A stretch of 26,796 bases of DNA from a virus, in IMG/VR virus record IMGVR_UViG_3300030329_002279, positions 2,251-29,046 of that record. One strand, 5' to 3'. A program made the translations under genes and the position numbers. The notes beneath the pieces were generated by a model. It did no database searches and was not told the origin of the DNA. It saw only the letters and a list, made by a program, of their open reading frames with translations. Of this stretch, positions 4,401 to 18,652 are shown one piece after another (the first letter of the stretch is position 1; every line of letters starts with the position of its first letter).

Positions 4401-6668
4401 AGAGTTAGCTACTGAATCGTAATCAACAATCTCTGGAACAATCATGGTATCACCTGATATTCCTCCATCTGATTGATTACTGAATGCATCAACATCATAC
4501 ATTTTTGGTGCAGTATCAGTAGCATCGCTAATTTTTCTAGCACCTACCATTGCTGGTACATCCATGTTCGTAGCAAAAATTTTGGACAATGATTGCAGAG
4601 CGTTTAGTTGTTCTTCGTTTATCCTGCCTTCTTCAAAAAATCTCAAAGGATTAGCGTGCATTTCTGCCATATCAATGCGTTCAGAGATAACTCGTTTCTT
4701 GTCTCTAACACTTATTCTTACATACTGATTGTAGTTGAATGTCCCTACAGGAAGATCGAACTCACTCTCTAAACCTCTTGCTAGTGCTTTCCCTTCTTTA
4801 GTATCTATGGTTACAGCTTTCCAATACCCTTCTTTTCCTAAGAATAATTGTTTCAACTCTTCGATACTTGTAGCTATAGCTCGCTTAGCACCATTTGCTG
4901 TATTGACACTTTCTGACCAAATGCTACCACTTTGTTTCACCACTTCTTGTGGAGTTGTAATAAGTTTTTGTGAGCCTTCAAGTTTCTTCAGACCTGCATA
5001 CGTAGTAATTAGATTTACTAATTCTTGTTTATCACCATCCCAAACTGTTATTGGAATTAGTTTTCCATCTCCTCTTACCTGTTCAAAGATATCTTTTGCT
5101 ACCTCACGTAACTTCGTTACATCAGCTACAGCTTCTGGTGCTAGTCCAAAGATTGCTGGTTCTGCTTTCAATGTCTCAACTACAGACAAGTAGTTTTCTA
5201 AATCTGATTTACTCGTAAGGTATGACTTCCCTCTAAATGCAGGATCTCCTTGAGGCATAACATCTAAATCTAAATCATACTTGTTACGTATGTTCAAAGT
5301 AGTTTCAGGTACTGGATCAGTAGGATTCTCCCATTGAGATCTATAGTTCCACATTTCATCTAATGCTTCTTCATTTACTTTGACACGCAATTCCCTACCG
5401 GCTAATAAGCTACGGTCTTTGATATCTCTATCAGGGAATATTCCTACGGGGCCCATAGACGATCTTCTGGTTGCAGATGATATATCTAATGCCAATCTAT
5501 CTTTAGGAACATTTGAGCCATTAGGTTTCTTGTGTTTGATTCGTAGTTTTACTGCCATATCTACTAATTCAGATCTGTTCTTTTTCATAAGATCTTTATA
5601 GCTAAAATGATTTCTGCTTGGATCTGAATCATCTAATTTTCTTAATGCAGTATCATCTAAATTCAAAGGAGACCGTGGTTCTTGCAGTTGTCTGAATGGA
5701 GTTACTTGTATTTCTACAGGGGCTTTCTGATCAATAGGCCTCATAGAAACACGTAAAGTGCTAGGAGCCTTTACTGCATTACCCATAGTAGATCTGAAGC
5801 TGTCACTAGGTACATCGAACCTTTCAGGAGCAAGTGTTTCAAATTGTAACCTGCCGCCCTTAGCATGGACTTTCAAATTCGTAGCTACACCAGCTCCCAT
5901 ATTGATACCACCGAATGCTGCGATACCAGCTAATAAACCTAAACCAACACCCGTCTCAGGTCTTTTTTCATTAATCTCTTTTATTCCCGGTAGTTCAAGT
6001 GTTCCTCGAACTGCTCCATCAACAGCAGCATTACGCCCAAGGATATAACCAACAGCTGTCTTTTCACCCCTAGCAGCTACACCTTTAGGAACCATAGGGT
6101 CAACAACGCCACGTGCAACTTTCTTAGCTGCTTGCAATTGCTTTACTTCTGCTAATGCTTTAGTAGCTTTTGCTGCTGCTTGTGGAACAGCAGGAGCAAC
6201 TGCTCTACGTGCCATTGCTGCCGTTCTTGTAATCCTTGCTCCAAAAGAACCAATTGCCCCAGCAGTACCTGCACCTGTAACAAAAGCTGCAGCTTCAGCA
6301 ACAGTCGCTGGTGTAAGCATTGCATCTAATGCTATAGCTGCCCAACGTGTAGCCCTGTTACCTGCTGACATTTTATTGAATAAGTCAGTACCGGGATCAC
6401 CGGGCAACATTACATCAAGTAATTTAGATGCACTAACAGCAGGTGCTACTACACTCCATGCAGTCGGCAGTATACCTGTCTTCCGTTCTTGCTGTTCTCT
6501 TTCAAAGTCAGGGACTGATGGCTCTAAGTGCGGTGCTCTCGATTGATTGAAAGTATAATTACTTGCAGGGGCAGCCTTTGTTGTTGTAGGCAAAAACCTA
6601 TCATATGGATTTTCCAAAGATTTATTTTTATCTCGCTTTGAGTCTATGTCCCATATACCAAATGACAT
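1476..6668 (-). CDS. Giant internal virion / DNA ejection-type protein (1730 aa)
   Basis: A 1730-aa protein starting at an ATG that shares its A with the stop of the previous gene (TAATG). The N-terminal 270 residues are Ala/Gly/Val-rich, with hydrophobic stretches near residues 110-145 and 240-264 (VGLGLLAGIAAFGGI). Two more lie near residues 1000-1020 (VDLGGLFILAPFAMG) and 1205-1220 (ILMVTGAALTVSAVSAIA). The rest is charged and helical. This matches the make-up of internal core proteins that leave the capsid with the DNA and span the cell envelope (T7 gp15 and gp16 are the model), but I see no specific domain. It sits between the transglycosylase-bearing protein and the scaffold. Ejection function is inferred from size, membrane-prone segments and neighbours. 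Confidence 0.6.
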   Translation of the reverse strand: MSFGIWDIDSKRDKNKSLENPYDRFLPTTTKAAPASNYTFNQSRAPHLEPSVPDFEREQQERKTGILPTAWSVVAPAVSASKLLDVMLPGDPGTDLFNKMSAGNRATRWAAIALDAMLTPATVAEAAAFVTGAGTAGAIGSFGARITRTAAMARRAVAPAVPQAAAKATKALAEVKQLQAAKKVARGVVDPMVPKGVAARGEKTAVGYILGRNAAVDGAVRGTLELPGIKEINEKRPETGVGLGLLAGIAAFGGINMGAGVATNLKVHAKGGRLQFETLAPERFDVPSDSFRSTMGNAVKAPSTLRVSMRPIDQKAPVEIQVTPFRQLQEPRSPLNLDDTALRKLDDSDPSRNHFSYKDLMKKNRSELVDMAVKLRIKHKKPNGSNVPKDRLALDISSATRRSSMGPVGIFPDRDIKDRSLLAGRELRVKVNEEALDEMWNYRSQWENPTDPVPETTLNIRNKYDLDLDVMPQGDPAFRGKSYLTSKSDLENYLSVVETLKAEPAIFGLAPEAVADVTKLREVAKDIFEQVRGDGKLIPITVWDGDKQELVNLITTYAGLKKLEGSQKLITTPQEVVKQSGSIWSESVNTANGAKRAIATSIEELKQLFLGKEGYWKAVTIDTKEGKALARGLESEFDLPVGTFNYNQYVRISVRDKKRVISERIDMAEMHANPLRFFEEGRINEEQLNALQSLSKIFATNMDVPAMVGARKISDATDTAPKMYDVDAFSNQSDGGISGDTMIVPEIVDYDSVANSAAFQAKIEESLAKKRNLDLGSHTERNLISDISDLIGSDGTRFTNYAKTKIASKADGSPKDMDLGEYGFRGTQSHVLSRSDGENYIRAFDLQTKYGVEVVNPWDSARILTEEAMELMMQRHIVNQMLRTTDGSSPVIGKILLDLDWSAGNPDKAIKGLINDTANPIAIGNYDEVVPIGTNNIVVGGETLLFMGKEGSAKRDINWIREQINPRKNKQWEDKAIARTLMPLIDKANTLGVYMATTVDLGGLFILAPFAMGSRAGAGAFWGGFREGWKAAWKNPEDFRTATQAKMESIEYKIAETEFGVKISDVDKPNPNNPNEFIPKQFEDFTLGELPERVKGYGIKGTPIRIGSFEQAFVTSMNDIRVTAVLQEARFKEQLLGRKLTPQEKRSIGETYNLLTAAPDAIGRGKYTKYMFFADGFFRSQRQVIARALSGSTLAGAEIRNHILMVTGAALTVSAVSAIAQGRDPREVLSLIDEKALARGTIRLNPNLGTIRAGEFDVDTLGWLKPFANMVASAYTTGLDVLDDDQDTFRNELMHGVSRFLDSKASPTLRVAQEVAFKGGYDFQGRHMLATNNFEGLQSASARLAPIWLTQSIDEFVDEMKEAGVDSNITAKELSAAGVDSLTQGLTEFLGLRVHSTSPSEQINQIIISDKDLNPMGFDRGEISQTMYNDFKRKYPGPFERYEDFSRAGQFQSAQQKGYLKVEEIKEQLEQDIQDSWEDYSATNQSAFRDRADFVKHITMLKRNASMAISTTRENAGIEFTPGSSTSMIMNEYYRAYDEETVGGRTNFEAVDARHAALEKRIRAGEFGGLDENGKPTPLMGLQIELMNERVFKTTGSANVDEIMEAKHYIMQNTDWYEMLDKNTAILGKDFESTLGVGPTQTWGQLDREIGWLEQQIIMDKQLPKENRLDIAQYSARLDAARKLRYRIDDVTARQRKTLRLQNPVIATDTLTGKPSMTLDEALTLIGKLD

Positions 6669-10602: not shown

Positions 10603-12425
10603 TATTGAAACTGCCTTGCTGCTTGATCTACTTGTGCATTCATTCGTGCATCAGTAACTATAGGTTCTGTTGGATTGCCGAACTCATCTACTGTAGTCAA
10701 TGCCTGTTCATCTCCCATTACTGGTTCTGGTTCTGATGGGTCTTGTGCTCCCATGATACGCATTACTTCTTGCCCTACTTCACCTAGCCCAGCTAATGCA
10801 ACAAGCGTTTGTACATTAGACATAGCTGGTGAACGCATAAGGTCTTCTACTGATCGTTCATCTTGTTCTTGTGTTGGGTCATCTATACCCATCTTATCCA
10901 TGGCTGTTCGTTCTGATAGACCCGGCATGATCCTGTATAGATCAGCCCATAGTCTAGCCTTACGTGCATTGATCATAGTCTCATCAGTAGTTTCAAACGT
11001 AACATTAGTAAAGTAATAGTTATCAATGTCTGCTGGTTTCAGCGTAGTCTCTGACGGAGTGTTTGAGAAGGAACCGTAAAGAGTGACCTCTGTTTCCAGT
11101 ATATGTTGTATATCCATCAATACCCATGAGTTTATTTTTTGACAAGCACGTTGCAATGCAGATACAGGGCCAGTCAGTTTAGTAGCAGAGTTTCGTAATA
11201 GCATGTCACTTTCAGTGGCAGACTCTACTCCTACTAGTGGCGAGCCACCCAGTGCACCAAACTTAGATGCTTCATCTGCGTAACCGTTGACACGTTGCAA
11301 TCCTTGAATAAGTGTAAGGGGAGCTTCACCCCATCGTAATACATCTACATTTTGATCAGGGCGTAAGTTCAAATGACTGCCGGGGCCAAGTCTAAATTCT
11401 TTCTCACCATCTTCTAGTTCTTCCATGTTTGTTGTCACTAAAGCTGGGAATACATACATACGTAGCCATGCTTCCATTTCTGTAAGGAAACGTGCTTCAG
11501 ATGTGAGTACAGATCTGATAGGGCGAAGTATAGATGCATATCTATCTTCAGGTTTATTGTCCCCATCTACTTCACCAAATCCGGGATCTACTATTGCATA
11601 TGGGACGTACCCATCATAGTCGAGCATATTATCATCTGATTCTTTAGTTTCCCAAGAGTACGGATTGATAGCTTCATGTATGACATCACCCTCTACCCAT
11701 ACAATATATTGACCCGGATCATCTTTGTATGGTTTTGTCCACATCTCTACGTACTGAAGTTTACGCATAGGGTCACCCATACCATACACTTCTTCCATTT
11801 CTGGATACTTCATACAAAGATCGCTAGAGAATATTTCATACTCTTCGTAGACATACTGTGGTTCCCATGGATTACTAGGGTCTTCAAAGATATGTTCAGG
11901 TGGACAGACATCTACATTCCACAGGAATCTAGACTTAGCTATTCTCTTTACTGCATTACGAAATCTACGTTTATCTGAACTGGTAGGGTTCTCTGGCAGG
12001 TCAGGCAGTAAATCAAACTTCAGTGTTTTCTTTAGTACCATCTTACCTCTGATAAGTTTTTTCTTACCTCTATCTAATGGAGCACCTTGATCTTCATGGA
12101 CTCTTGCCCACCACATATCGTGGAAACGTCTTTGATTCTCTGCATGATCCCTAGCTGCTTCTTGTGAATCGCCAACAGGACGTATAGGTACATATGTTCT
12201 TGGTGATGTGAGTATGTGATCTGATGCATTGACTACTGCATTGTATGCTGTAGGAGGTACTGTTGGAGCTAAACCTTCATCCATCCATTCATCTGGTATG
12301 ATACTTTTTGCAAAGTTACCCGTGATGAGATCGTCATCTGTTTGAAATTCAACAAGCAATTGGCCATATACACTAGATTTTAAATGCTGGAATCTTTTGT
12401 ATGCGTCATCGGCATTCATGTTCAT
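10602..12425 (-). CDS. Portal (head-tail connector) protein
   Basis: A 607-aa protein, within the usual portal size range, directly downstream of the large terminase and overlapping it by 4 nt (ATGA). The sequence is acidic and Trp/Tyr-rich in the first half (RFHDMWWARV near residue 100). It has an aspartate/proline-rich clip-like region (DPSNPWEPQYVYEEYE) and a long helical segment in the second half (GLQRVNGYADEASKFGALGG, about residues 375-395) followed by SATESDMLLRNSATKLTGPV. It ends in an acidic, Ala/Gln-rich tail. The overall pattern matches podovirus-type portal proteins of marine phages. It would form the dodecameric ring through which DNA is packaged and ejected, and would dock the terminase. 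The name rests on position, size and general resemblance. Confidence 0.8.
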   Translation of the reverse strand: MNMNADDAYKRFQHLKSSVYGQLLVEFQTDDDLITGNFAKSIIPDEWMDEGLAPTVPPTAYNAVVNASDHILTSPRTYVPIRPVGDSQEAARDHAENQRRFHDMWWARVHEDQGAPLDRGKKKLIRGKMVLKKTLKFDLLPDLPENPTSSDKRRFRNAVKRIAKSRFLWNVDVCPPEHIFEDPSNPWEPQYVYEEYEIFSSDLCMKYPEMEEVYGMGDPMRKLQYVEMWTKPYKDDPGQYIVWVEGDVIHEAINPYSWETKESDDNMLDYDGYVPYAIVDPGFGEVDGDNKPEDRYASILRPIRSVLTSEARFLTEMEAWLRMYVFPALVTTNMEELEDGEKEFRLGPGSHLNLRPDQNVDVLRWGEAPLTLIQGLQRVNGYADEASKFGALGGSPLVGVESATESDMLLRNSATKLTGPVSALQRACQKINSWVLMDIQHILETEVTLYGSFSNTPSETTLKPADIDNYYFTNVTFETTDETMINARKARLWADLYRIMPGLSERTAMDKMGIDDPTQEQDERSVEDLMRSPAMSNVQTLVALAGLGEVGQEVMRIMGAQDPSEPEPVMGDEQALTTVDEFGNPTEPIVTDARMNAQVDQAARQFQ

Positions 12426-13789
12426 GCGACACCTGTCAAGAATCTACGCTTAGGCTTATTGCCGAACGTAATGTATTTTTTATTAGACACGATCTTACGT
12501 GGCTGTCTTTGCTTAGCTAACAATACTGTCAAGCCAGCAGCCATTACACAATCATCAAAATATCCGGGAGGTGCTGAATATTGTATATTCCCTCCTGCCA
12601 GTACTTTACCTTCAAACAACTTTAACTCTCGTCTTAGTTGTTCGTCATCATCTATAAAGTGTATACGCCCATGCTCTACTTCTGCAACTAGTGTTGAGAC
12701 TAATTGTGCTTTTGATTGCAGGGTGAATTTGAAAGAGGTTATATGGCATCCTTCGTCAATAAGAATATCTTTCACAGCTTCACCTACACCAGTTGCATCC
12801 ATATGAATCGTTTGGCATTTATACTCTTGATATAACTTTGCGATACGTGGGCCGAGTGCTGTGTAGGACAAGCCATTGAATCTATCACTAGCAACAATCG
12901 ACATGTCTTTGATGTCAATAACATAGGCTACTGTGTAGTCATGTTGCTTTGCTACATCTAATCCCATTAAATAGTGTTTACCTTTTTGCCATGGCTGTTG
13001 TTTACTATCAAAACAGTCATCGACGTTCTTGAAAACTTTACCTTCTGATTCAGCCCATTGGGCTAAAAAGCGTTGACGGAACTCGATATCTGGATATTCG
13101 AGCTTTGCTTCATCAACAACCTTTTTATCTATAGAAGGGTTAGCAGTAGTAGGAACTGAGAATGAATAATAATCTGCATCTTCTTGTAATGAGGACTGTC
13201 CACGTTCCCAATATGATCGAAACCAGTTATTACTTTGGGGCACTCCTATTGCGATTAGTCGTCCATTTGAGTCAGTTAGTGCTGGCATGAACTCGTTACG
13301 TGCAGTATCAGGTACATCATGTGCTTCATCTATTATCGCTGCAGTTACTCTGTCACCCTGTAGCGAGACTTCGTTATCTGCAGATTTAGCTTGAATACGT
13401 GCTCCTGATTTTAGTTCAATCAGTCTACGTTCTTTGTTATAAGATGCTATCACATCATTTAAAAGTGGTGCATTGCCTGATGTAGGATCGCCGATACATG
13501 ACTTAACAAACGGCTCCCATACCCTCATAGTCAATTCATAGTTAGGGGCAATGATATACACAAGAGGATAATGCTTTACTCCTGCAACTATAGTTGGCTT
13601 ACGTGATAGTTCACGCCATGCTTCAGCTACAATAGCTGTAGATTTGCCTGAACGACGACCACAGGCTGCAATTATTCTATTTTCCGGACGGGAGTGTATA
13701 TGTTCAGCTTGCCATGGAAAAGGTTCATACCCTTTCTCACCGAAGATAGTTAGCAAATCCCATTGCAATGGACGTTCATATTTAATCAT
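12422..13789 (-). CDS. terL: Terminase large subunit (packaging ATPase and nuclease)
   Basis: A 455-aa protein with both halves of a large terminase. The ATPase half has Walker A GRRSGKST (44-51), Walker B AAIIDEAHD (150-158, with the D-E pair) and a coupling-motif-like IAIGVPQS (179-186). The RNase H-like nuclease half has acidic residues in MGLDVAKQHD (D278), HMDATGVGE (D331) and YFDDCVMA (D412/D413). The protein docks on the portal, pumps DNA into the capsid and cuts concatemers. Length and motifs are complete. It overlaps the upstream 90-aa ORF by 8 nt and the portal by 4 nt. This is the firmest functional call in the window. Confidence 0.95.
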   Translation of the reverse strand: MIKYERPLQWDLLTIFGEKGYEPFPWQAEHIHSRPENRIIAACGRRSGKSTAIVAEAWRELSRKPTIVAGVKHYPLVYIIAPNYELTMRVWEPFVKSCIGDPTSGNAPLLNDVIASYNKERRLIELKSGARIQAKSADNEVSLQGDRVTAAIIDEAHDVPDTARNEFMPALTDSNGRLIAIGVPQSNNWFRSYWERGQSSLQEDADYYSFSVPTTANPSIDKKVVDEAKLEYPDIEFRQRFLAQWAESEGKVFKNVDDCFDSKQQPWQKGKHYLMGLDVAKQHDYTVAYVIDIKDMSIVASDRFNGLSYTALGPRIAKLYQEYKCQTIHMDATGVGEAVKDILIDEGCHITSFKFTLQSKAQLVSTLVAEVEHGRIHFIDDDEQLRRELKLFEGKVLAGGNIQYSAPPGYFDDCVMAAGLTVLLAKQRQPRKIVSNKKYITFGNKPKRRFLTGVA

Positions 13790-14081: not shown

Positions 14082-14576
14082 TTATTCTTTATCCTCTGCC
14101 TCCATGTCAATTATTGTACCACTTTCTCTCGGAACATAGTCTTCAGTTTGTGCCATTCTTGTTCCAGCGTAACTTGCGAAGAAACTTGCAAGCTGGGATT
14201 CGTTTTGAGTGTCTCTAGATTCACGGGGTTTACCAAACATTCGGTCGAAGTAGTACTGCTGTGCCTTGACATCTCCCCCAACAGCAGATGCAATCAAAGC
14301 ATCGTACACTGCATCAACGTCATTAGCTCCCCTGTCTTCGAAAATGGTTACCCATGCTTTCTTTTCCCTACCTTGATTCTTAACAGCTAGAGGAGCACCT
14401 GTCCCTTTGACACTTACGCCCCTCCCCACATGTCTTAGAATAGGAGTAGGCGTGCCGGGCCCAATGTGAATGCTACCATCTCGGCAACCAGCCACTATCT
14501 CCTCGTAGCTACGGTCACCATAGTCTCTATTTGGATCTAGCAACGCTATCAAATCTTCTGTCTCTTTGTCTTTCAT
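14082..14576 (-). CDS. Probable terminase small subunit
   Basis: A 164-aa protein, first gene of the late minus-strand operon. Residues 70-120 (KKAWVTIFEDRGANDVDAVY then ALIASAVGGDVKAQQYYFDR and MFGKP) follow a pattern known from small-terminase-like DNA-recognition proteins, in which a helical A..GDV.A..Y..DR..GKP block ends the DNA-binding part. Small terminase precedes large terminase in most tailed phages, with one small ORF between here. The ATG at 14576 is preceded by AAGG about 14 nt upstream, a weak and distant ribosome site. Role inferred: recognition of phage DNA and regulation of terL. Confidence 0.65.
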   Translation of the reverse strand: MKDKETEDLIALLDPNRDYGDRSYEEIVAGCRDGSIHIGPGTPTPILRHVGRGVSVKGTGAPLAVKNQGREKKAWVTIFEDRGANDVDAVYDALIASAVGGDVKAQQYYFDRMFGKPRESRDTQNESQLASFFASYAGTRMAQTEDYVPRESGTIIDMEAEDKE

Positions 14577-14615
14577 GGATGAATAATAACCTTGTAGCTC
14601 CCTTCAAGTCAATGG

Positions 14616-14675
14616 CAGCGAAGGCTTAATGTAACTTCGTCGCTGATCGCCCCCCAGAGTACAATAGAAGGGGGG
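14616..14675. repeat. Hairpins in the leader of the late operon
   Basis: CAGCGA (14616-14621) can pair with TCGCTG (14640-14645). Immediately beside it CCCCCC (14650-14655) pairs with GGGGGG (14670-14675) across a 14-nt loop. They lie 40-100 nt ahead of the small terminase start and would be in the 5' leader of the late minus-strand transcript. Strand of action is not decided by the sequence. Confidence 0.45.
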
Positions 14676-14751
14676 TAGCATCTGGCACCCCGTCCGTCCC
14701 AGTGTTAATGTTCTCTGTTGTCCTAAGTAGAGAGTAAGTACTAGTAGAGTC

Positions 14752-14802
14752 GGGGCTATTAATAATATTCTAAGGGGAGTACCCCAGAATATTATCCGCC
14801 CC
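14752..14802. repeat. Long hairpin with AGTA apical loop
   Basis: GGGGC (14752-14756) pairs with GCCCC (14798-14802), then ATAATATTCT (14762-14771) with AGAATATTAT (14786-14795), then GGGG with CCCC around the loop AGTA (14778-14781). That is about 19 base pairs in 51 nt. The AT-rich middle helix would be easily extruded in supercoiled DNA, so a DNA role (origin, promoter architecture) is possible as well as an RNA one. Confidence 0.6.
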
Positions 14803-14858
14803 TAATGGGATGCCTGAAGGTTAAGAGCAAGTATATATTCCTATATCCCCTTTGATCT

Positions 14859-14941
14859 CCCGCACTGAGCTAGCTTTGCTAGCTAGCCACAGTACACTGT
14901 GGCTGTTCTATGCTGCTTAAGCAGCATAGAAGCAGTGCGGG
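14859..14941. ncRNA. Cloverleaf-like four-way junction, three perfect arms
   Basis: CCCGCACTG (14859-14867) pairs with CAGTGCGGG (14933-14941). Inside lie three perfect hairpins with almost no spacer: AGCTAGC-TTT-GCTAGCT (14868-14884), AGCCACAG-TACA-CTGTGGCT (14885-14904), and a 26-nt perfect palindrome at 14906-14931 centred on CTTAAG. Nearly every base is paired. The geometry is tRNA-like, but there is no T-loop, anticodon-loop or D-loop sequence, and arm lengths are wrong for a tRNA, so this is not called as one. No G-U pairs are present, so neither strand nor RNA versus DNA can be decided here. Confidence 0.65.
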
Positions 14942-15003
14942 TCTGCTACGGTGCAGTGTTATACCACGTGCGAGGGCTCTGTCCGAGGTTACGGAGTGTT
15001 TAA

Positions 15004-15101
15004 GCTAGAAGCACCTGCTCTGTTAAGAGCATGTGCTGAGTACTGTTGCAGGCCTGCTCTGCGAGAGCAGGCTTAGTTCTGCAGTAATTACAGCATCTAG
15101 C
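15004..15101. ncRNA. Three-way junction structure
   Basis: GCTAGA (15004-15009) pairs with TCTAGC (15096-15101). Arm 1 is AGCAC.TGCTCT paired with AGAGCA.GTGCT (15010-15037, one C-T mismatch, loop GTTA). Arm 2 has an outer bulged helix, TACTG/CAG with CTGCAGTA (15041-15051 and 15079-15086), and an inner perfect GCCTGCTC-TGCGA-GAGCAGGC (15052-15072). Same design as its neighbours: closing helix plus hairpin arms. Confidence 0.6.
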
Positions 15102-15124
15102 AGTGTCTCCATCCTGTACTATGT

Positions 15125-15182
15125 AGGTACTAGCTCTCTGCGAGAGAGCTAGTACCTCTCGGAGTAGCTGTATACCAGCTAC
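15125..15182. ncRNA. Two adjacent perfect hairpins
   Basis: A perfect 14-bp helix joins 15125-15138 to 15144-15157 with loop TGCGA. Seven nucleotides later GTAGCTG (15164-15170) pairs with CAGCTAC (15176-15182) across TATAC. The first shares its tip CTCTGCGAGAG with the hairpin at 15052-15072. No coding potential is evident here. Confidence 0.6.
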
Positions 15183-15252
15183 GTGCACTACTGTGTTCAT
15201 TGAAGTAGTATAGTAGTAATCTTTCTTCTACCCCGAAGTTGAAGCCCAGCCC

Positions 15253-15390
15253 TTCATCCACCGAGATGCTCTTCCGAGCAATGAACAGCTCCGATTCAAC
15301 GGAGCGTAGATCTTCCGTGCCCTTGGTGTCAGTGTGGCAAAAGCTGATCCAAAGTGAGGATTATTTTTCCTTAAAAAATAACGTCCCTTT
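15253..15390 (+). ncRNA. Chain of four hairpins
   Basis: In order: TTCAT (15253-15257) with ATGAA (15281-15285) enclosing TGCTC-TTCC-GAGCA; GCTCCG-ATTCAA-CGGAGC (15288-15305); TTGG.GTCAG (15323-15332) with CTGATCCAA (15344-15352), containing one pair that is G-U only in plus-strand RNA; and an AT-rich helix TTATTTTT (15361-15368) with AAAAATAA (15374-15381), extended by GGA/TCC. An open frame from TTG at 15239 passes through here but lacks a ribosome site and looks incidental. Confidence 0.5.
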
Positions 15391-15414
15391 GGTGCACGCT
15401 TTTGTCGAATCTCC

Positions 15415-15463
15415 AGACACTAAAGTGCTACTGCATAAAGCAGACAGCATCACTTCAGTGTCT
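15415..15463 (+). ncRNA. Hairpin with stacked inner helix
   Basis: AGACACT (15415-15421) pairs with AGTGTCT (15457-15463). Inside, GTGCT (15425-15429) pairs with AGCAT (15446-15450), its outermost pair being G-U when read as plus-strand RNA, and CTGC-ATAAA-GCAG forms the tip. Flanking GGTG (15391) and CACC (15478) could close it further. Confidence 0.5.
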
Positions 15464-15513
15464 TCCAATCCGATGCCCACCTCCTTAGAGAATCTGCACA
15501 CCTTATAGAACCA

Positions 15514-15553
15514 GAACAGCATGGCGTGCCCATTGGGGCATCCCATGTTGTTC
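15514..15553 (+). ncRNA. Long hairpin with two G-U pairs, ATTG tip
   Basis: GAACAGCATGG (15514-15524) pairs with CCATGTTGTTC (15543-15553), and GTGCCC (15526-15531) with GGGCAT (15536-15541) around the loop ATTG. Both imperfect positions are G-U pairs on plus-strand RNA and would be C-A mismatches on the minus strand. The tip TGCCCATTGGGGCA is repeated exactly at 17039-17052. Confidence 0.6.
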
Positions 15554-15563
15554 TTTCCGAGCC

Positions 15564-15658
15564 ATTCTTTAGGGGAAGGTCACATAGATTTGGATGTAGC
15601 CAAATCTATTGTGTCCGTTTATATCAGCACAAGGTGCTGACTTAGGCCCCTAAAGAAT
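15564..15658 (+). ncRNA. Three-way junction structure
   Basis: ATTCTTTAGGGG (15564-15575) pairs perfectly with CCCCTAAAGAAT (15647-15658). Arm 1 is CACATAGATTTGG (15581-15593) with CCAAATCTATTGTG (15600-15613), one bulged A. Arm 2 is TCAGCAC-AAG-GTGCTGA (15624-15640). All helices are 7-13 bp. Strand assigned from G-U evidence in the neighbouring hairpin only. Confidence 0.6.
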
Positions 15659-15691
15659 AGCTGGGATTCTAACGGCCTATCTCTCTCTCTA

Positions 15692-15765
15692 AGCCCCGGA
15701 AATCTAAGTCGGAGTACCTCCTAAGATTTCGCTCAGATATGGAGGGATCCATATCTGATGGGGCT
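15692..15765 (+). ncRNA. Three-way junction structure with AGTA tip
   Basis: AGCCCC (15692-15697) pairs with GGGGCT (15760-15765), flanked by CTCT/AGAG. Arm 1: GAAATCT (15699-15705) with AGATTTC (15724-15730), internal loops, and a GG-AGTA-CC tip (15711-15718). Arm 2: CAGATATGG (15734-15742) with CCATATCTG (15749-15757). The pattern repeats that of 15564-15658. Confidence 0.55.
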
Positions 15766-15769
15766 GAGA

Positions 15770-16065
15770 GGCTAGTATGTAAACCATGTAATCACAGTTT
15801 GTCAACCCTGAGTACAGGGCTCCGCAATTTTTTAGGAGTACCTAAAAAATGGTTGACAAACCACCTTGAGTAGTCTCAGTGGTAAGAATAAGTAGGGAGC
15901 CATAGAGGAACAGTTCTTACAATACAAGTCACCCCCAGTCAAGGCCTAACGGAAAAGCCTTGACAGTGGGCAAGCATATTGCAAAATCTAAGGCGGGGTA
16001 CCGCCTAACATTTTGCTAATATGTGCCTTGTAATGTAAGAACTTAGTATGGTTTAAATACTAGCC
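15770..16065 (+). ncRNA. Domain of about 290 nt closed by a long-range helix
   Basis: 15772-15787 (CTAGTATGTAAACCAT) pairs with 16048-16063 (ATGGTTTAAATACTAG) with one mismatch, and two further G-C pairs extend it to 15770 and 16065. Enclosed are: a three-way junction closed by GTTTGTCAACC (15797-15807) with GGTTGACAAAC (15851-15861), holding a CTG-AGTA-CAG hairpin and a ten-pair hairpin with loop AGTA at 15827-15850; a small hairpin CCAC..TGAG-TAGT-CTCA-GTGG (15861-15882); and a branched structure closed by 15913-15928 with 16027-16042 (15 bp, one mismatch) containing GTCAAGGC/GCCTTGAC and a compound hairpin at 15974-16026. This is a large ornate fold rather than scattered palindromes. No Rfam family could be assigned by eye. 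Confidence 0.6.
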
Positions 16066-16085
16066 AAGAGAGAGCTAGTAACCAT
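16048..16085 (+). promoter_or_regulatory. Leader hairpin competing with the long-range helix
   Basis: ATGGTT (16048-16053) pairs with AACCAT (16080-16085), and ACTAGC (16059-16064) with GCTAGT (16074-16079) around CAAGAGAGA. The left strand is the same sequence that can pair with 15772-15787, so the two folds exclude each other. It ends 21 nt before the next start codon, and the ribosome site AAAGGA lies just outside it. Confidence 0.5.
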
Positions 16086-16106
16086 GTTCATTGAAAGGAA
16101 AATACA

Positions 16107-17021
16107 ATGAATAAGACAATGAAACAAGCAATGATAGATCACGCTAATGCAAGGGTTTCTGCTAAGAAACCATATGCACAGCCTGTTAGCGAAAGAATGC
16201 TTGAGCTAATGGATAGTGAATACAACTGGTTGCAGAACCCAGTTGATGAAAATTCTCCTAAGTTTATTACTTGGGACAAGCATCAAGCTAAATGGATAGC
16301 AATGATTGTTAGCAATCTATCAGTATGGATAGAAAACAATGGAGTAACTCAACCAGAGTTACGAGATACTGAGTACTATCACAAGACAGATCCAGATACT
16401 GGTGAAGCATGGAATGCGTCCAGTATTTGGGCTGACATCATTGTTGGCAAGCTCACAGAGATTGCCACTAAAGATGATACGAAGTATGTCAGAGCGACAG
16501 GGAAGACTGTATCTAATGCATATAAGATAGGTGCAAAGAATGAAGAAAGATTCAAGACTGAAATTGAACCTACCCTGTCGCCTACATTAGCTAGTATATT
16601 CAATACATTATCTAATGGAGAACCCTGTGAAGTGACTGTCACAAAGAACCGTGATCAACGGTTGACTGACAGCCATGAACGTGATGCCGAAGGCAATTAC
16701 GTGAATGCACGTGCATCCCGTACTCGTAAGGGTGCATGGGTGGACGCACCTCGTGCCACCGAGGAAGTCCATCACTTCACAGTTACCATTGAAAACAATG
16801 AACCTGATCAGAAAGTAAGACAACAAATTGAAGATTTGTTTTACTTTACAATGAACTCATTTCCACTCAATGGTAACGCTGTAGATGATACCTATAAAGG
16901 ATTGAAAGCTACAGTGAAAGGTAAAGTAAAAGCTATAGCTTGTACTCATCACTATGTAATAGATGATAGCGGGCTTGGTACTTGTAACAAGTGTGGTGCT
17001 ACTAAGCAACACAAGCTATAG
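16107..17021 (+). CDS. Early protein with C-terminal zinc ribbon, unknown (304 aa)
   Basis: First early gene, starting at ATG with AAAGGA 7 nt upstream, behind the structured leader. The body is mixed charged and hydrophilic, with no enzyme motif I recognise. It includes a basic middle part (NARASRTRKGAWVDAPR, near residue 200-216). The C-terminus carries C279-x-H281 and C293-x2-C296, a compact zinc ribbon (CTHHYVIDDSGLGTCNKCG). A zinc ribbon and a first-early position would fit a nucleic-acid binding or transcription-related protein, but that is inference. A hairpin overlaps its stop codon (17014-17031). Confidence 0.75.
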   Translation: MNKTMKQAMIDHANARVSAKKPYAQPVSERMLELMDSEYNWLQNPVDENSPKFITWDKHQAKWIAMIVSNLSVWIENNGVTQPELRDTEYYHKTDPDTGEAWNASSIWADIIVGKLTEIATKDDTKYVRATGKTVSNAYKIGAKNEERFKTEIEPTLSPTLASIFNTLSNGEPCEVTVTKNRDQRLTDSHERDAEGNYVNARASRTRKGAWVDAPRATEEVHHFTVTIENNEPDQKVRQQIEDLFYFTMNSFPLNGNAVDDTYKGLKATVKGKVKAIACTHHYVIDDSGLGTCNKCGATKQHKL

Positions 17022-17391
17022 CGGGATAGCTAGATGCCTGCCCATTGGGGCAGGCATCAGCTACAGTCCACCACTGCAGTTCCTGCAGTGGTGTTGAAGG
17101 CACAGTACCTAAGTACTGTGCCTTCAAACAGACCCCGTGGCCAGCCCAACCTGCAATGCACCGATGCTACCAAAGGTAGCCTCGGAAATGCATCAACTGC
17201 TTTAGTCAGCAGTTGATGCTGTTGGTAGCAACAGAAACAAATCCTAGATTTGTTCCAGTTGCAGTGAAAGGAAAAATTATCATGGATAATTTTACAGTAA
17301 CAACAGCTAGCAACAAGCACTGCAAGCAGTGCATGATGCGTAGCTGTGCTGTTGCTGATAGCAACAGCATGTGGCCACGAAGGTGACCACA
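17014..17391 (+). ncRNA. Array of about ten hairpins after the first early gene
   Basis: In order: AGCTAT/ATAGCT over the stop codon (17014-17031); a 16-bp hairpin 17027-17063 with an ATTG loop; CACCACTGCAG-TTC-CTGCAGTGGTG (17069-17093); a perfect 15-bp hairpin 17094-17108/17113-17127 with loop CTAA; 17161-17185 (loop AAA); GCATCAACTGCT/AGCAGTTGATGC (17190-17219); CTGTTG/CAACAG (17219-17234); AACAAATC/GATTTGTT (17236-17254); AAAATTATC/GATAATTTT (17273-17293); ACAGCTA/TAGCTGT enclosing GCACTG/CAGTGC (17303-17347); GCTGTTGCT/AGCAACAGC (17348-17368); TGTGG/CCACA (17370-17391). Loops are mostly 3-6 nt. Some adjacent arms overlap by a base or more and may be alternatives. The two hairpins at 17014 and 17027 cannot both form. 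No coding frame here has a ribosome site. Confidence 0.65.
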
Positions 17392-17400
17392 GTGGGAGCA

Positions 17401-17590: not shown

Positions 17591-18062
17591 TCCGATGACC
17601 ATGCCACATACACATGTACGTGCAGTAATACATGGCTTTGGTAGACCAGACTTCAAGGAATATATGTTTGAACGTAAGAAAGTATACCTTGACTGGCTTG
17701 ACAAGGAACATGGTAATCATCCTACTGACTGGCAACCTGAAGAACCTAACAAGTTCTACGACGGTATAGTATTTGAACTACCTGATTCAGAAGAGCTAAC
17801 GAAACTAGTAGCTGAGCATGAGAATAAGAAAGCTACATGTTGGGTACGTAGCATTACGTATCGAGCACACTCATGTACGTTCCAGTGTGGAGTACAACAA
17901 GAGAAGTATGGTACATCTATCTGCGAACTGGACACGACACGTGATGCAATGGATGTTATAATAGAACTTGATGATTGGGAATGTGATGCTGAGGTAAAGG
18001 TGGATGAGGCACAAGCACAGTTCTTAGATGAATTGTACCCTGATAATCAAATAGTAATCTAA
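17565..18062 (+). CDS. Unknown acidic early protein (165 aa)
   Basis: The ATG at 17565 has GAAAGGTGA just upstream, and a second ATG follows directly. The protein is acidic, especially the C-terminal 40 residues (MDVIIELDDWECDAEVKVDE). It contains a conserved-looking N-terminal block HTHVRAVIHGFGRPDFKEYM and single cysteines near residues 93, 103, 107, 116 and 134, with no clear metal-site spacing. It overlaps the membrane peptide gene and is followed by a structured gap. Function unknown. Confidence 0.7.
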   Translation: MMTVTKEYDPMTMPHTHVRAVIHGFGRPDFKEYMFERKKVYLDWLDKEHGNHPTDWQPEEPNKFYDGIVFELPDSEELTKLVAEHENKKATCWVRSITYRAHSCTFQCGVQQEKYGTSICELDTTRDAMDVIIELDDWECDAEVKVDEAQAQFLDELYPDNQIVI

Positions 18063-18064
18063 CA

Positions 18065-18300
18065 ATCATATCCCCTCGCTTTCGTCAACCCCTAAAGGGG
18101 TGTGACTTCAGCTCGTTGATATGATGTGTTTGATTTGTATTGGTAATATTCCCGTTGGATAAACAAGCTCTTCCGCAGTACAGCCCCGCTGTGCCCGGAG
18201 TTTATCCTATGCACAATGTAAGAGTTAGTGGAACTGGGAAGCTAACCGCCAATCATGAGAGCTTGACCCTATGGCTCCTGAACATGGGGTTGAGCTCTCA
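18065..18300 (+). ncRNA. Structured intergenic RNA, four helices with G-U pairs
   Basis: ATCATATC (18065-18072) pairs with GATATGAT (18118-18125) around ACCCCT-AA-AGGGGT (18088-18101). GGATAAAC (18157-18164) pairs with GTTTATCC (18200-18207), enclosing TCCG/CGGA and GTACAGC-CCC-GCTGTGC, with one U-G pair. GTTAG/CTAAC (18224-18246) forms a weak arm. Finally 18256-18273 pairs with 18283-18300 over 18 bp, with three imperfect positions that are all G-U pairs in plus-strand RNA. Loop GCTCCTGAA. The block fills the gap between two genes and ends 18 nt before the next ribosome site. Candidate RNase III processing site or regulatory leader. Confidence 0.65.
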
Positions 18301-18328
18301 CCAAATTGGAAAAAGAAAGGAGGTAATG

Positions 18329-18652
18329 ATGACATCTATATCTACATGGGGAGTAAGCAAATCTGCTTTCATATCCCTTGACAATCCTGCTGATAGTACA
18401 TGGCAACATGCAATGTATATACGTGATGGAGAGAGTGCTGATACTCAACTGCGTGTGTACATGACAGAAGAAGAACTTGTAGAACTATATGAAACACTAC
18501 ATGCATACATACATGCACAAGTATTCATGGTTGAACAAGAACTTGATGATGAAACTATCAACATAAAAGTCAATCCAAAACTACTGGAACAATATGTTGC
18601 AATAAAGAATGGTAAAGAGCATGAAGTGGAACGAAGTACTACCACAGTATAG
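18329..18652 (+). CDS. Unknown early protein (107 aa)
   Basis: The start is the second of two adjacent ATGs (18326 and 18329). AAAGGAGG lies 5 nt before the second, a strong site and good spacing. The frame is open further upstream, to 18140, but that part runs through the structured RNA and has no ribosome site. The protein begins MTSISTWGVSKSAFISLDNP, is acidic, and has a helical middle (TEEELVELYETLHAYIHAQV) followed by EQELDDETINIKVNP. No family is recognised. It overlaps the following small gene. Confidence 0.7.
   Translation: MTSISTWGVSKSAFISLDNPADSTWQHAMYIRDGESADTQLRVYMTEEELVELYETLHAYIHAQVFMVEQELDDETINIKVNPKLLEQYVAIKNGKEHEVERSTTTV

Follow-up and report, generated by a model that had tools for sequence, protein, structure and literature searches.

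How should one read 1.5 kb of marine phage DNA that encodes no convincing protein and folds, almost end to end, into hairpins nested within larger helices? The window (the whole stretch of DNA analysed, 26,796 nucleotides, bases 2251–29046 of a 29,046-base viral record) comes from an incomplete contig. Late genes run leftward (TerS at 14082–14576, TerL at 12422–13789, a portal-sized protein of 607 aa, and two very large proteins), early genes run rightward, and 14577–16106 is where the two sets meet. An earlier note had seen no ORF with a ribosome site covering this interval and had proposed for it a large structured plus-strand RNA on the scale of GOLLD or ROOL, with extruded DNA hairpins near an origin among the alternatives. 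The first statement holds, as the interval has no convincing ORF, just mechanical ones of 61–89 aa. The second is the question addressed here.

To the right lies the orphan ORF304 (16107–17021, plus strand; 304 aa, with a ribosome site), for which no homologue was found. The DNA from TerS to a conserved element at 18137 is a phage-specific accessory island; protein scans with its ORF304 and ORF165, and with DUF932, found no close relatives in the collections scanned, and AlphaFold models of the two ORFs, made without homologues, are uninformative (pLDDT about 34). Among the genes covered by protein searches are those for an AAA_25 helicase/primase-like protein, a Cas4-like exonuclease, and a Holliday junction resolvase. 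Within this set, from an incomplete contig, neither a DNA nor an RNA polymerase was recognised, suggesting that the phage probably depends on host enzymes, and no Rep/HUH or relaxase family was found within the same limits. Two TerL relatives lie in MAG contigs, one labelled Dehalococcoidia (L054; 85%, from ALOHA) and one labelled Chloroflexi (L055; 56%). From these labels, the host of this uncultured phage group is probably a SAR202-type member of the Chloroflexota (Dehalococcoidia/Chloroflexi).

Extent and anatomy of the hairpin-rich region

Both strands fold far below shuffled controls. For 14577–16106, the MFE is −617.8 kcal/mol on the plus strand (dinucleotide-shuffle mean −451.4, sd 10.2; z −16.4) and −638.8 kcal/mol on the minus strand (mean −457.2, sd 9.9; z −18.4). 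RNA parameters were used throughout, save in one fold with DNA parameters, which gave −324.7 kcal/mol and most of the same arms. In a 120-nt sliding scan, excess folding is concentrated at 14840–16080 and 16960–17400, with a weak patch near 18040–18360. Given the z-scores and the scan, the dense nested helices reported earlier, with closing helices and two- and three-arm junctions, are real, far beyond chance, and wider in extent than first noted: a second cluster (17010–17391) and a smaller structured gap (18063–18260) had been overlooked. The left boundary needs correction, because the structured part is about 14640–16100, and 14577–14640 is instead a TerS-proximal promoter and a conserved motif.

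The main nested palindrome array, hereafter R1 (14640–16100), was defined from folds of both strands and from wobble and loop counts, and its helix list comprises the helices common to both folds. It consists of hairpins of 7–16 bp and long closing helices. From the left, these include a long hairpin with an AGTA tip inside a GGGGC/GCCCC closing helix (14752–14802); a four-way junction (14859–14941) in which a 9-bp helix (14859–14867/14933–14941) closes three perfect hairpins of 7, 8, and 11 bp almost without linkers; two hairpins at 15010–15072 (11 bp with a GTTA loop and 9 bp with a GCG loop); and a perfect 15-bp hairpin with a GCG loop (15125–15157). Next come a 25-nt motif with a GCCCTTYATCCACCGAGA core (15242–15266), a hairpin tipped by CCCATTGGGG (15513–15554), and a three-way junction (15556–15666) with two hairpins on a closing helix of 19 positions, 17 of them paired (15556–15574/15648–15666). 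The largest domain, of ~400 nt (15677–16078), has an outer helix (15677–15687/16068–16078), an arm (15688–15769), and a second closing helix (15770–15787/16048–16065; 17 of 18 positions paired), such that the arm interrupts an otherwise continuous helix (15677–15687 plus 15770–15787 with 16048–16065 plus 16068–16078). This domain holds an AGTA-tipped hairpin (15699–15730) and a further three-way junction (15912–16043), where the helix 15912–15928/16027–16043 closes hairpins 15938–15964 and 15975–16023.

Several tips recur: G-AGTA-C four times (~14777, 15712, 15807, and 15836) with a GGTA variant near 15997, GCG near 15061 and 15140, TCTGCGAGA twice, and CCCATTGGGG near 15529 and again in the second cluster (near 17041–17050). 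The hairpin at 15699–15730 is a paralogue of that at 15983–16014, and together they form the D1 repeat (15700–15741 versus 15984–16025; 81% over 42 nt). Inspection of the copies shows one base pair with both of its bases exchanged, and two mismatched positions of one copy that are paired in its partner. The second cluster, R2 (17010–17391, from the sliding scan and folds), partly overlaps a short 34-codon ORF that has a ribosome site (about 17284–17388).

The recurring tips and the ORF overlapped by R2 are consistent with small mobile hairpins that inserted into one another, comparable to the palindromic elements of Rickettsia or, in sponge mitochondria, to the repetitive hairpin-forming elements. 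Like the mitochondrial elements, R1 is a cluster of DNA-encoded hairpins in intergenic DNA. However, those are near-identical mobile copies, whereas the hairpins of R1 share tips only, with D1 the sole repeat pair above 80% identity over 40 nt. In sponges, stems are conserved and loops vary (PMC2800124), the reverse of R1, in which tips recur and stems differ. Copies of R1 are also absent from the rest of the window and from the plasmids and phages searched, and we consider this origin very improbable.

Strand tests against RNA and DNA controls

R1 could instead specify a large structured RNA. On the plus strand this would be an early leader or a trans-acting RNA of the GOLLD, ROOL, or ICP1 type; on the minus strand, an RNA lying upstream of TerS. 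Large RNAs typically show nested, multi-branched architecture of this sort, and like GOLLD, ROOL, and the ~800-nt ncRNA of phage ICP1, R1 is a large, ornate, ORF-less stretch in a phage genome; the ICP1 RNA is that phage's most abundant transcript (PMC7567579). We compared the strands of R1 with those of controls (16S, 23S, RNase P, MS2, a tmRNA stretch, ICP1, and the M13 intergenic region, with GOLLD and ROOL left out of the set), counting in normal folds the in-helix G-U pairs, that is, those flanked by Watson-Crick pairs.

By this measure, R1 has 10 wobbles in 279 pairs on the plus strand (3.6%) and 10 in 301 on the minus strand (3.3%). Functional strands have 13.7% in 16S, 13.9–15.5% in 23S, 19.6% in RNase P RNA, 10.7–11.0% in MS2 RNA, and 9.8% in the ICP1 noncoding region, and shuffles of R1 have 14.5% (sd 2.4). 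Perfect Watson-Crick helices of at least 8 bp number 16 in R1, one in 16S, and zero and two in the MS2 pieces. Among 26 hairpin loops of R1, one is GNRA and none is UNCG. Unpaired bases are strand-symmetric (A152 T151 G90 C81; compare A185 T118 G151 C44 in 16S and A420 T257 G264 C65 in 23S), which is supportive and not decisive alone because those of MS2 RNA are also near-symmetric.

The energy difference between strands, MFE(+) minus MFE(−), is +21.2 kcal/mol in R1, slightly in favor of the minus strand (shuffle sd 8.6). In controls, the difference for the functional strand ranges from −6.9 to −95: its advantage over the complement is 89–95 kcal/mol in 16S/23S pieces, 42–49 in MS2 pieces, 25 in RNase P, 21 in the M13 intergenic region, 12 in a presumed tmRNA stretch (a soft control, lacking annotation in its record), and 7 in ICP1 (transcript strand assigned from flanking genes). 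Of the two features of large structured phage ncRNAs in general, a better fold and tolerance of G-U, the plus strand of R1 shows neither and the minus strand shows the first, weakly. If R1 is an RNA, the minus strand is more likely than the plus strand.

The plus strand had been favored earlier because the imperfections in three helices could be read as its G-U pairs. Two of the three (15514–15553 and 15323–15352) do fold better on the plus strand, but the third (15415–15463) folds better on the minus strand (−25.6 versus −18.1), and the argument fails across the region as a whole, where in-helix G-U is equal on the two strands. Mismatches were counted in a G-U-forbidding fold, which treats both strands alike and, applied to rRNA, serves poorly as a control for types of mismatch; in R1, single mismatches inside helices comprise 1 G.T, 3 A.C, and 17 others.

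We also folded a known DNA palindrome array, the telomere of the linear Streptomyces plasmid pSV2 (bases 1–170). Its pairing is 69% strand-symmetric, with in-helix G-U in 2 of 33 (6%) and 1 of 31 (3%) pairs on the two strands. The profile of R1 resembles this wobble-poor, strand-symmetric array and not the RNA controls. The strand symmetry and scarce wobble suggest that selection, or continual perfection, acts at the level of DNA.

The late (TerS/TerL) promoter, TTGACT-18-TATTAT (14583–14612, minus strand), lies between R1 and TerS and is directed away from R1; at this site, L004, L006, and L054 have TTGACA-17-GATACT or GATAAT. Just outside it is the conserved motif TTCGTCGCTGATCGCCCCCC (14636–14656), also found in L004, L009, and L010, where it lies upstream of TerS, and at the opposite end of contig G001 (L021). 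Perfect early promoters (TTGACA, TATACT) are present in relatives G001 and L054 and absent in or to the left of R1. No consensus promoter is directed into R1 from either side, and the nearest match within it (15960–15987) has two mismatches. Such a lack argues weakly against a transcript because host promoters may differ.

Searches with all models of Rfam 15, including GOLLD (RF02032) and ROOL (RF03087), gave no match in the region at gathering or relaxed thresholds, not even a weak one. R1 is far more perfect and strand-symmetric than GOLLD, ROOL, or the ICP1 RNA, and the ICP1 noncoding region is much less structured. With no strand bias in wobble or loops, no inward promoter, no conservation in relatives (see below), and a better fold on the minus strand, the plus-strand RNA proposed earlier is not upheld; extruded DNA hairpins, the alternative listed beside it, match the strand symmetry better. 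The two plus-favoring helices and the 21 kcal/mol advantage of the minus strand still count toward RNA, and we rate a structured RNA on either strand as rather unlikely.

Relatives and neighboring elements

TerL searches recovered nine and then twenty viral loci, plus the two MAG contigs, and R1 was found in one contig only; TerL profile scans recovered relatives without it. Searches with R1 had no match among phages or plasmids (blastn against INPHARED and PLSDB) and no homologue among viral contigs, and exact motif scans returned L007, G001, or chance matches only. None of the collections searched contained anything like R1. Most relatives at 85% TerL identity carry, in place of R1, a short gap that folds weakly, and the gap upstream of TerS in G001, G003, and L054 is short and not strongly folded. 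At the position of R1, L007 has its own 133-nt nested domain with a perfect 15-bp closing helix, unrelated in sequence; the 25-nt motif (15242–15266) is all that it has in common with R1, and L007 is the only place where the scans found that motif. Since most relatives lack R1, it is not essential to this phage type. In more distant relatives, L011 (7561–7800) and L043 (1761–2840) have strongly folding stretches unrelated in sequence to R1, one inside an ORF and the other partly intergenic.

Rapid turnover between relatives, and the confinement of hairpins to non-coding gaps of a variable island, would also fit a non-adaptive process in which template switching by foldback, at a non-coding and replication-prone site, repeatedly makes and perfects inverted repeats. 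Near-perfect, strand-symmetric arms with loops mostly of 3–6 nt are consistent with this process, as are duplicated hairpins re-paired with new partners, exemplified by the D1 copies. Yet palindromes in decay would be expected to accumulate G.T and A.C mismatches, which account for only 7 of 31 counted mismatch positions (small numbers), comparable hairpins were not found in the other non-coding gaps of the window, and closing helices spanning 65–380 nt would require repeated distant switches. We therefore view foldback as a credible but unlikely explanation. Inverted chimeras from MDA were rejected by reasoning, as they would yield long inverted copies of nearby genome and not dozens of nested hairpins of 8–15 bp; R1 also matches nothing else in the window. 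The Holliday junction resolvase was rejected as a special partner of R1, as G001, G003, and L007 carry a resolvase without R1.

Other elements were noted around the array and in relatives. A small conserved RNA candidate (18137–18260, plus strand) lies at the end of the island, separate from the array, and is placed in an early leader. It has counterparts in L007 (5734–5872, minus strand) and L054 (290–388, minus strand), the latter with a perfect promoter directly upstream. The candidate has conserved UAWUAUUCC and ACAAUGUAAGAGUUAG, a P3 stem, a possible UUCC/GGAA pseudoknot, and a P1 stem in which two of five pairs have changed on both sides among three phages; it has no match in Rfam. A small hairpin, ATTATC-ATG-GATAAT, holds the start codon of the 34-codon ORF in its loop. 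LexA-like GAACNNNNGTTC operators are present in L004, L021, and L007 and absent from the window by exact-pattern scan. Arrays of palindromic, LexA-like AGAACNNNNGTTCT operators occur in the divergent region of relatives (L007 6436–6507, L004 63–95, and L021 9478), and inspection found degenerate ones in L054 (about 4515–4590); the window lacks these too.

The ends of the 36.5-kb contig G001 (L021 10466–10484 and L023 142–158) both carry a diverged copy of the region around the TCGCTGATCG motif, oriented alike, which would fit an assembly that closed on itself through strain variants. GCGC and CGCG have zero occurrences in 29 kb (the window and L027), with about 47 GCGC expected in the window, whereas G001, G003, and L054 have both and almost lack CCGG, suggesting avoidance of different restriction enzymes.

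A possible role as folded DNA

Because R1 folds equally well from either strand, we prefer a folding DNA element over a giant RNA. We assign a probability of roughly 40% to the reading that R1, with the smaller R2, is a DNA-level nested palindrome array that helps to open or prime strands where late and early transcription diverge. The traits observed are very stable folds of both strands, near-zero wobble, strand-symmetric loops, near-seamless junctions, and confinement to non-coding DNA. A site between divergent operons gathers negative supercoils, and the start of replication exposes single strands. Either the supercoiling or the single-stranded DNA could let R1 form hairpins and branched junctions, and the folded DNA may help open, prime, or load the replication machinery at the divergence point. 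We infer that R1 folds in cells and has a role in replication. Counting against a DNA array, closing helices 260–380 nt apart extrude poorly from double-stranded DNA and need long single strands. The GC-skew minimum is located inside R1, but this switch is not distinctive because the change in coding strand also predicts it. A scan for DnaA boxes found none in R1.

Two known classes of DNA element are informative. Typical telomeres of linear Streptomyces replicons have tightly packed palindromes, in which a closing pair surrounds two hairpins with small loops, and function as DNA (PMC4513846). R1 likewise has packed palindromes with closing helices and hairpins, a likeness that extends to the "rabbit ear" ends of parvoviruses. 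It differs in being internal, with phage genes on both sides instead of a replicon end, in its size (1.5 kb versus about 0.3 kb), and in belonging to a tailed phage that has a terminase. In rolling-circle plasmids and ICEBs1, single-strand origins (sso) form hairpins in single-stranded DNA, and their structure can matter more than their sequence (PMC4595007). Known sso are orientation-specific and far shorter than R1, those of pBAA1 and ICEBs1 having three key stem-loops; no relaxase or Rep was found among the genes searched in the incomplete contig.

More specifically, we tentatively propose, as a possibility that is itself doubtful, an internal 1.5-kb architecture whose two strands can both adopt one multi-branched structure, serving as DNA in the control of replication or gene switching. 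To our knowledge, such an internal folded-DNA element has not been described for tailed phages. Wobble rate, loop symmetry, and the strand energy difference together provide simple controls that separate ornate RNA from strand-symmetric hairpin DNA when genomes are scanned. If R1 acts as DNA, packed palindromes like those of telomeres and parvoviruses would extend to the interior of a tailed phage genome, and R1 would offer a concrete test of how replication starts in a phage with no recognised polymerase, from an uncultured and abundant lineage of the dark ocean.
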